Part shown: in pieces, positions 1,928-30,267 of the stretch
Layout: every line of letters starts with the position of its first letter
Numbering within the stretch: position 1 is the first letter of the stretch
Source: an uncultured Silvanigrella sp.
GTDB taxonomy: Bacteria > Bdellovibrionota_B > Oligoflexia > Silvanigrellales > Silvanigrellaceae
DNA length: 38,558 nucleotides
Assembly: GCA_903933385.1 (NCBI GenBank)
Contig: CAIZJW010000314.1
Span: 1-38,558, forward strand
Direction: 5' to 3'
The notes under the pieces: model-generated
Database searches by the model: none
Seen by the model: only the letters and a program-made list of their open reading frames with translations
What the model was told of the DNA's origin: nothing
Made by a program: the position numbers and the translations under genes

Positions 1928-2407
1928 ATGATCCGCACATCGGCTTTAATTCTTTCGTGTATTTCAACTCTAGCTGCCTGCAACAAGGTAAGCGCTGGCA
2001 ACAATTCTCAAATTGATTTTGCAAAAGATGCGAACAAGGCATTGCCGCGCATCGCACGCTGTTCTCAGGTGAGCGAAATTGAAAAAATTACGGTGCGAGA
2101 AACTTTACTTGTAAAAATCGGCGACGGAAGCATTTCGGGGACATATCACTTTGCGACTGGGGAAAAAGAAACACTCACTGACACTGGCTTCCAGCATCTT
2201 TCAGGTCTCATAGAAGGTTCGCAGAGCAAAGACGCCAAGGTCTCAGTGAAACTCAAAAACGGAAGCCTCAACGTTTTCTTCGATGAAGATTTTGCGCCGG
2301 AGAAAGACCTGACCGAACTGATTTTTGACCTCAAGGAAAAAAAGCTCACCTTTCTTCTTGGGGATGAATCACGCGAAACTGTCGTTGGCGGTTGCACCTT
2401 TGAATAA
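1928..2407 (+). CDS. Small hypothetical lipoprotein
   Basis: The protein has 159 residues from the ATG at 1928. I prefer this start over the ORF-track start at 1883 because the shorter form begins directly with an export signal (MIRTSALIL...) ending in a lipobox LAAC with Cys18, and a G-run (GGGGGGG) lies a few bases upstream. The mature part is hydrophilic with two further Cys residues, one near residue 44 and one near the C-terminus, that could form a disulfide. I do not recognise a family and no catalytic motif is visible. It sits directly before the dehydrogenase-cytochrome lipoprotein gene on the same strand, separated by a perfect hairpin. Confidence 0.75.
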   Translation: MIRTSALILSCISTLAACNKVSAGNNSQIDFAKDANKALPRIARCSQVSEIEKITVRETLLVKIGDGSISGTYHFATGEKETLTDTGFQHLSGLIEGSQSKDAKVSVKLKNGSLNVFFDEDFAPEKDLTELIFDLKEKKLTFLLGDESRETVVGGCTFE

Positions 2408-2415
2408 GTTCTGAT

Positions 2416-2456
2416 GAGATCCTTCTTCAGCCATCAATGCTCTGAAGAAGGATCTC
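2416..2456 (+). promoter_or_regulatory. Perfect 15-bp hairpin covering the ribosome binding site of the next gene
   Basis: The left arm GAGATCCTTCTTCAG (2416-2430) and the right arm CTGAAGAAGGATCTC (2442-2456) are exact reverse complements with an 11-base loop. The right arm contains the GAAGGA ribosome binding site of the gene starting at 2460, so the folded RNA would hide it. The arms are not followed by a T-run; the ATG comes three bases after the stem. This speaks for translational control, or a factor binding site, rather than a simple terminator. Confidence 0.7.
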
Positions 2457-2459
2457 GCC

Positions 2460-4616
2460 ATGAGAAATGGACAATTCCTGTCTTTGCGCCTGTGCGCATT
2501 TTCGTTAATATTACCCGTCGCAGGACTTGTTGGTCATTTATTTCTGACTGCTTGCAAATCAAAAAAGACCACCTCGAGCAGCACTCGAGAAGTTCCCTAT
2601 AAAGAAAATGCCGGAAAAACAAAAAAGGGCGGATACTCTCTGAATCCTGCCGACACATCATGCGGCGGATACCCAACACTTCGTATTGAAACAATGCCTG
2701 GAAGTTGTGTTGGAATGGTAAAGCACAGCGAAGATGAAAAATTCCAACCGCGCGTCATGCTCGAAATTCCTGGGCGTGTTGGACACTTTCTCATCACAGA
2801 TTTTGCTGCCTGGGATCCAAAAGATGGAAAAATTTGGCTCCTTCAATCCAAGACGAACGCATCCGACGTAATCATGACTCCTGCACTGCGCGGTTTATCG
2901 GTTCCGCATCAAATTTCTGTTGGTCCGGAGAATCATATCTATTTTGCAGAAGATAATCGAATACGAGCTTTTCCGATTTCAGCCATCCAAGGAACTGCAG
3001 AAATCCCTTCGTCGGCAGTCGTCGATGTTCTCACAAATCTCCCCGGAATGTTCAGTGGGGAACAAAAGAATAGTATGCATCCACTCAAACACTTCACCTT
3101 TGATTCGCAGTTCAATTTGTACGTGAATGTGGGTGCATATACCGACCACTGCAGCGACTTTCTAGGAAAGACATGCCATGAGGCTGATATTTCTTTCGGC
3201 ACCACAGGCTCACCAGATGTCCTCAACCAAGGTGCAGTGATTCGAAAATACAGTTACAAAGGTTCTCTGAAGGCCGGGTGGGATCCGAACTACAAGATTG
3301 TTGCGCAAGGTTTGCGTAATTCCATGGGTTTGCTTTTCACTTCGAAGGGTGATCTCATTCAGGTGGAGAATGGTCGCGATTTTCCTGAGTCCTCACGTCC
3401 GTTCGAAGAACTGAACGTCATTCCGGCCGCACAAATAAAAAATCCAGCCACCCTGCCTCCACATTTCGGCTGGCCATACTGCTACAACTACAATGAGACG
3501 AGTGATGAGTGGCGAGGATATTCATTTTCCTGCGACCCAAATGTAAACAAAAATTATCACGCTCCCTTCGTTTTTTTGCCGCCCCACAGCGCTCCTCTCG
3601 GGCTCATTCGATACACGGGAGGCATGTTTCCAAACTTAAAGAACAAATTAATTGTTCCTTTGCATGGATACAGAAGTGCCGGACATCGACTGATTGCTTT
3701 TAACACTGATCCAGCGAGTGAACTTCCAATGAGAGGTGGAAAGGGATCATTCCGCGATGATGACATGTCGGGTGGAACATCAGCCTTCGAACGTTTTTAT
3801 CCCGAGCACCCATCAGCGGCATTTTCAGAGGAAGTGATTTCGGGTTGGTACGATGCTCCCGGTTATCGTCCACGTGGAGCGCCAGTTGCTGTTACGCAGG
3901 CCAACGATGGCAGCATATGGATTGCAGACGATAAAGCCCACGCCATATTGCGACTTGCAAAACCCGATCGAGAAATGCAGTCATTGCCGCCTGCCCCGCG
4001 CCCAAATTTAGCACTTGCCTACACGCAGCTTTCCGCTGAACTCCCAGGCTTTAAAAAGGCTTATGAGTCCCTAGTGAGCAAAGTGATCCGCACGTCTCAA
4101 TGTGAAGGGTGTCACGATAACTACACCAATACGGGCGATGCTACGTCGGATGGTTTGCATCACATGCGCTACATACTGGCCATGGGCAATTGGGCTGTTC
4201 CAGGTGATTTGAAAGGAAGTACACTCTTCACCAAAATGGATCCGCCAGGAAAAAGTGCCATGCCTCCCATAGACAAACCCTATCCGAGTGTTCAGGCAGC
4301 AACTGAGGCTCTCGAGGCTGTAAAGGCTTTTATTCTGGCGATGCCAGCACGTGAGAAGCTCTGGAAAGTAAAATCTGGCAGCACGTCGGCTCTCAAGGGT
4401 TTGAAGCGCGGGGCACCTGGCAATGCTGTCTGCGGATCTCTGCCTTCGGGCTATCATGTTCAAGCTGTTTCAAACACTCCTGCCACCTTGGGCGGCCAGA
4501 AAATGCTTGAGGTTGTTGTCGGAAAGCCTTCAGCGCTTGTCAAAGAGTCAATATGTCAGCAGTATGATGCGTTTTATGTTGCTCAGGATAGCTTGGAAAA
4601 ACTCTTCAATCCATGA
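2460..4616 (+). CDS. Sorbosone/glucose-dehydrogenase-like beta-propeller lipoprotein with C-terminal cytochrome c
   Basis: The 718-residue protein has a long export signal and a lipobox LTAC with Cys32. Residues of about 80-510 resemble the soluble aldose/sorbosone dehydrogenase beta-propeller: blocks VGPENHIYFAEDNRIRAF, a KIVAQGLRNSMGLLF-type segment, FGWPYC and a closing NDGSIWIADD. A haem-binding CEGCH lies at residues 548-552, and an AMPP block is a candidate for the axial Met. The likely role is oxidation of a sugar or alcohol outside the cytoplasm, with electrons leaving through the attached haem; the substrate and use of PQQ are inferred from the family. The N-terminal half is Cys-rich. 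AAGGA precedes the ATG but lies in a hairpin stem. Confidence 0.85.
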   Translation: MRNGQFLSLRLCAFSLILPVAGLVGHLFLTACKSKKTTSSSTREVPYKENAGKTKKGGYSLNPADTSCGGYPTLRIETMPGSCVGMVKHSEDEKFQPRVMLEIPGRVGHFLITDFAAWDPKDGKIWLLQSKTNASDVIMTPALRGLSVPHQISVGPENHIYFAEDNRIRAFPISAIQGTAEIPSSAVVDVLTNLPGMFSGEQKNSMHPLKHFTFDSQFNLYVNVGAYTDHCSDFLGKTCHEADISFGTTGSPDVLNQGAVIRKYSYKGSLKAGWDPNYKIVAQGLRNSMGLLFTSKGDLIQVENGRDFPESSRPFEELNVIPAAQIKNPATLPPHFGWPYCYNYNETSDEWRGYSFSCDPNVNKNYHAPFVFLPPHSAPLGLIRYTGGMFPNLKNKLIVPLHGYRSAGHRLIAFNTDPASELPMRGGKGSFRDDDMSGGTSAFERFYPEHPSAAFSEEVISGWYDAPGYRPRGAPVAVTQANDGSIWIADDKAHAILRLAKPDREMQSLPPAPRPNLALAYTQLSAELPGFKKAYESLVSKVIRTSQCEGCHDNYTNTGDATSDGLHHMRYILAMGNWAVPGDLKGSTLFTKMDPPGKSAMPPIDKPYPSVQAATEALEAVKAFILAMPAREKLWKVKSGSTSALKGLKRGAPGNAVCGSLPSGYHVQAVSNTPATLGGQKMLEVVVGKPSALVKESICQQYDAFYVAQDSLEKLFNP

Positions 4617-30219: not shown

Positions 30220-30267
30220 GCATTAAAAAGCCCCGGTGGTCGCAAGAACACCGGGGCTTTTTAATGC
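30220..30267. terminator. Strong bidirectional intrinsic terminator
   Basis: GCATTAAAAAGCCCCGGTG and its exact reverse complement form a perfect 19-bp stem with a 10-base loop. A-runs on the left arm and T-runs on the right arm make it work on both strands. It separates the end of the oxidase operon from the convergent fabH gene. Confidence 0.93.

Follow-up and report, generated by a model that had tools for sequence, protein, structure and literature searches.

Gene organization at the locus

The window, by which we mean the complete stretch of 38,558 nt that was analyzed, derives from an uncultured Silvanigrella species, a member of a little-studied group that is known here mainly from draft genomes. 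Two lipoprotein genes follow each other on its forward strand. The upstream gene (1928..2407) encodes a protein of 159 aa with the lipobox LAAC, for which a Pfam search returned no match; its longest open reading frame begins at 1883, and the start at 1928 was preferred on the basis of the signal peptide and conservation. The downstream gene (2460..4616) encodes a lipoprotein of 718 aa with the lipobox LTAC, a glucose/sorbosone dehydrogenase domain (PF07995), and the haem motif CEGCH, which was read from the protein sequence. This gene pair is found in the same order in all three genus members compared, and the lipoprotein and dehydrogenase genes are presumably co-transcribed.

The two genes are separated by an intergenic gap of 52 nt which contains an inverted repeat. 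The upstream stop codon TAA (2405-2407) is followed by an unpaired linker of 8 nt, GTTCTGAT (2408..2415), by the 5′ arm GAGATCCTTCTTCAG (2416..2430), a loop of 11 nt (2431..2441), and the 3′ arm CTGAAGAAGGATCTC (2442..2456), all on the forward strand. The arms are 100% complementary and form a perfect stem of 15 bp, and only the three nucleotides GCC lie between the end of the stem and the ATG at 2460. The 3′ arm contains the motif GAAGGA and with it the Shine-Dalgarno (SD) sequence AAGGA (2448-2452), located 7 nt before the ATG and paired with TCCTT (2420-2424) in the 5′ arm, the anti-SD arm. A reading of the locus from the sequence alone had described the perfect 15-bp repeat with its 11-base loop over the ribosome binding site (RBS), the GAAGGA in the right arm, and the distance of three bases to the ATG, all of which are confirmed. 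It had also correctly placed the end of the upstream gene just before the hairpin, but at a distance of nine bases, where we measured 8 nt. In addition, the same strand carries an AUG at 2414..2416, which lies 6 nt after the upstream stop codon and continues the reading frame of that gene.

A stable hairpin buries the Shine-Dalgarno sequence

The isolated hairpin has a predicted folding energy of -23 kcal/mol, and the folding energy of a region of 121 nt corresponds to a z-score of -3.5 relative to shuffled sequences. The number of stems of this length expected by chance is about 0.0006 for the window and about 0.05 for the whole genome of 3.3 Mb. With just one copy of the motif in the genome, a mobile or repeated element was rejected. 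A search of the hairpin with the Rfam covariance models gave nothing above the gathering score, the only matches being two microRNAs far below the cut-offs. A hammerhead ribozyme, considered on account of the hammerhead-like sequence CUGAUGA at the start of the stem, was also rejected, as no GAAA follows the stem and no Rfam match was obtained.

In the folding model, the SD sequence is unpaired with a probability of about zero, so that the SD of a real gene is enclosed in a stable stem, as is characteristic of RBS-sequestering hairpins. The costs of freeing the SD and the start codon were computed for 319 gene starts with an SD from the source genome and its sister species. The median is 6.7 kcal/mol; the dehydrogenase gene shows the highest predicted cost of all (20.3 kcal/mol), and the orthologous gene of the sister species ranks 7th (15.9 kcal/mol). 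Because of the fold of -23 kcal/mol and the near-zero accessibility of the SD, a strong repression of independent initiation is predicted, and the fold presumably represses translation of the dehydrogenase in the cell.

Two other functions that hairpins at this kind of position can have were considered and appear very improbable. An intrinsic terminator might be suspected since other stems of at least 14 bp in the genus are mostly terminator-like, but a U-run is absent from both strands: the stem is followed by GCCATGAG and, on the reverse strand, by ATCAGAAC. It was rejected on these grounds, in agreement with the sequence-only reading, which had already argued against it from the missing T-run. 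That reading had further suggested control by temperature. However, the modelled SD remains fully paired, with an unpaired probability of about zero, throughout a temperature series from 15 to 55°C, and the RNA thermometer was rejected as well; the fold is far too stable for a simple thermosensor.

Comparable stems at other gene starts

As a background, 587 kb of stretches from the source genome and the sister species were scanned. Perfect stems of at least 14 bp are few in this sample; most of those listed resemble terminators, the outer 5′ arm being rich in A and the outer 3′ arm rich in T. The dehydrogenase hairpin is the only one located at a gene start, in a scan that was run on one strand with at most one G-U pair allowed and that misses the sister copy, which is located on the other strand. 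Within the window itself, positions 30220-30267 form a stem of 19-22 bp whose outer arms are rich in A and in T, respectively, and which is likely a bidirectional terminator.

Stems of at least 9 bp that include an SD were observed seven times, compared to 1.8 expected from shuffled upstream sequences, with gene starts assigned mechanically and with each of the two orthologs entering the count. RBS-sequestering stems thus seem to be modestly enriched in the genus. A second conserved hairpin of this type, ACCTCCTC ... GAGGAGGT, stands directly before the ATG of a VWA-like lipoprotein gene in two species (L037:14938-14991 in G005, and L063 in G004) and is preceded by the conserved sequence TTAGTGGAA; the copy in G000 is interrupted by a contig end. 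In G000 (L043:4510, counted on the minus strand), a perfect stem of 11 bp, TCTCCATTGAA / TTCAATGGAGA, buries the GGAG that precedes a start codon of a gene predicted to be oxidoreductase-like.

Conservation of the hairpin in the sister species

In the closest relative (L002, genome G005), the dehydrogenase is 77% identical at the protein level, and the gap reads TGA-CTTCTGAT-GAGATCTCTTTTCAG-CCAGACAA-CTGAAAAGGGATCCC-GGG-ATG. The hairpin keeps 14 of its 15 pairs, and the SD still lies inside the 3′ arm. Two pairs have changed on both sides, from U-A to C-G and from C-G to U-A; of the single changes, one converts a C-G to a U-G pair and one turns an A-U pair into an A-C mismatch. Compensating base changes, which the sequence-only reading had proposed as a check of the buried SD, are therefore present in the nearest relative and support the sequestration, with the conservation of pairing resting on two sequences, the window and one sister species. 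By chance, the compensatory pattern arises in 0.6% of random placements when changes are drawn uniformly, and the joint pattern appears in about 6% of simulations when the six arm changes are treated as transitions only. Taken by itself, the compensatory pattern is thus moderate evidence for a conserved structure.

The linker comprises 8 nt in both species with seven of eight identical, and the stop-to-stem spacing is exactly 8 nt in both; TTCTGATGAGATC is shared without change, so the linker is conserved as well as the arm. The loop differs in sequence and is shortened from 11 to 8 nt in the sister species. Linker and arms together are identical at 31 of 38 positions (82%), which is far above the background, since the two genes show an identity of only 37-39% at four-fold degenerate sites. 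The binomial probability is about 3e-8, and about 1e-5 for the 19 of 23 positions that remain without the SD side. Some extra identity at synonymous sites towards the end of the upstream coding sequence is marginal. Sequence and comparison establish the hairpin, the buried SD, and the retention of both, with compensating changes, in the nearest species, and the hairpin displays evidence of selection in one lineage.

A perfect inverted repeat close to a gene start could also be a palindromic operator acting in transcription at the level of DNA. The change of the arm spacer from 11 to 8 nt, however, would rotate the two half-sites against each other by about one third of a turn, and the U-G that takes the place of one pair can form in RNA only. 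As the motif moreover occurs once in the genome, a DNA operator is disfavoured and we consider it improbable.

Other relatives and the possibility of a second promoter

In a third congener (L003, genome G004; 68%), the intergenic gap is about 130 nt long and contains a different stem, AAAACTGCATTCT...AGAATGCAGTTTTTAATT (L003 991-1033; -22.7 kcal/mol), which has a U-tract, is terminator-like, and ends upstream of, and close before, a separate SD. This species has either lost a fold of the type seen in the window or never had one. Between this stem and the SD little room is left for a promoter, and an attenuator is possible there. A relative from another genus of the family (L008, 47%) carries an open AAGGAG before the dehydrogenase gene. 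No further relatives were found in viral contigs searched by protein and by pattern, and no further close relatives in a phylum-wide protein search. The absence of the repeat in relatives, named beforehand as an observation that would speak against the element, hence applies to one of two congeners and to the more distant relative, but not to the closest one. The element is considered to be genus-level since it is present in two of three species while the relative from another genus has an open RBS, and control at this gene junction may be a theme shared in different forms.

Pairing alone does not explain the conservation of the linker. A promoter in the 5′ arm would account for it, and such an arrangement is known from gene e of phage T4, where the DNA that encodes the 5′ strand holds promoters and long transcripts are repressed about 100-fold (PMC3014915). 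Transferred to the window, long transcripts from upstream would be silent, and a second promoter would start transcripts inside the stem or loop which lack the 5′ arm and are free for translation. This arrangement would fit the marginal surplus of identity where the upstream gene ends and the terminator-like stem in the same gap of the third congener. On the other hand, no sigma-70-like promoter was detected in either species and the best manual fit reaches about 6 of 12 bases, in a search restricted to sigma-70-like sites, the consensus of which may not be that of the host group. We regard this explanation as unlikely.

How the hairpin could be opened

Our main reading, which we hold with about as much confidence as doubt, is that a cis-acting RNA hairpin conceals the SD of the dehydrogenase-cytochrome gene and keeps ribosomes from entering there independently on a message shared with the upstream gene. 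This leads to the question of what opens it. The sequence-only reading had offered ribosomes that merely finish the upstream gene, which is doubtful. By the textbook footprint, the leading edge of a ribosome should lie at about 2417 with the upstream stop codon in the A site, and at about 2429 with AUG 2414 in the P site. A ribosome at the stop codon would therefore reach only the base of the stem and leave a residual opening cost of 16.6 kcal/mol in the model. Only an occlusion up to 2424 lowers this cost to 5.5 kcal/mol, and the cost lies between 5.5 and 7.7 kcal/mol for 2424 or beyond. The shift needed past the upstream stop is about 7 nt, as would be achieved, for example, by a move onto AUG 2414.

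The most likely opening step, to which we lean only tentatively, would be that a ribosome finishing the upstream gene advances slightly to the conserved AUG 2414. Positioned there, it would occlude the 5′ arm (2416-2430), and the SD and the start at 2460 would become accessible to a second ribosome. This AUG and its distance from the stop codon are the same in both species, but the codon coincides in part with the linker and the stem. The open reading frame that begins with it spans 62 codons in the window and 20 in the sister species; its length is not conserved, and a conserved leader peptide, as required for an erm-type attenuator, was rejected for this reason. In a specific and rather doubtful version of this step, AUG 2414 would serve as a placeholder start codon, at which re-engagement exposes an SD 34 bases further on with neither gene overlap nor leader peptide; if true, the dehydrogenase would be translated only when the upstream lipoprotein gene is. 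Against these ideas, elongation from AUG 2414 would cross the dehydrogenase start out of frame, and no part of the hairpin lies within the upstream gene or its stop codon. The literature weighs both ways. Reinitiation and coupling drop steeply by a distance of about 20 nt (PMC10666635) and structure right after a stop codon inhibits reinitiation (PMC7518266), whereas cases of coupling by RNA unfolding have been described, among them a pair with a spacing of +52 nt (PMC12548453).

The stem might instead be opened in trans, by a small RNA that binds the 5′ arm and linker, by an RNA-binding protein or helicase, or by RNase cleavage; the sequence-only reading had likewise named a protein or a small RNA. 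A stem of -23 kcal/mol has to be opened actively, the sequence of the linker is conserved, and RBS hairpins of such a kind exist. No candidate factor was identified, however, no Rfam family scored above the gathering threshold, and the loop is not conserved; with respect to cleavage, a stem of 15 bp is short for classical double cutting by RNase III. Overall, a trans-acting factor seems rather unlikely to us.

It is also conceivable that no regulated opening takes place and that the hairpin is purely an insulator, i.e. a ribosome termination structure that blocks reinitiation and keeps the output of the dehydrogenase low and constant. The published description of such structures, stable, centred just past the stop codon, below -6 kcal/mol and with a gap of more than 25 nt (PMC7518266), fits the locus, as does the conserved stop-to-stem spacing. 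An insulator would not, however, need exact pairing with the SD, and burying the sole SD of an intact, conserved gene would nearly abolish translation of the dehydrogenase. We doubt this explanation. Since the sister species keeps the fold with compensating changes, the hairpin is probably a genuine translational switch, albeit one of an ordinary type.

Comparison with known systems

The hairpin shares features with several known systems and differs from each. In phage T4, the genes e (lysozyme), soc, 49, and I-TevI (PMC3014915) likewise carry the SD and/or the start region in a stable helix on transcripts from upstream; here, no promoter was recognised in the 5′ arm by the search for sigma-70-like sites, the gene pair is located on a bacterial chromosome, and the stem begins 8 nt after the upstream stop codon. 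The coupled pairs VII/IX of phage f1, coat/lysis of MS2, and rpmI-rplT (PMC12548453) are similar in that the second gene of a bicistronic message has an RBS concealed by folding, and rpmI-rplT has the same spacing of +52 nt. In these classical pairs, ribosomes translating the first gene overlap the structure or disrupt it, whereas the entire hairpin follows the stop codon in the window. As in translational attenuators of the erm type, a buried SD would become accessible once a ribosome occupies the 5′ side, but a conserved leader peptide is lacking. Ribosome termination structures (RTS; PMC7518266) are also stable stems directly downstream of a stop codon in gaps of more than 25 nt, a description that covers the 8 nt, 52 nt, and -23 kcal/mol found here; they are described as blocking reinitiation and not, as in the present case, as pairing exactly with the SD of the next gene. 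The locus thus presents a conserved native post-stop stem paired exactly to the SD of the following gene. It falls between post-stop structures that block reinitiation and RBS hairpins that are opened by upstream translation, and could serve to separate these two ideas.
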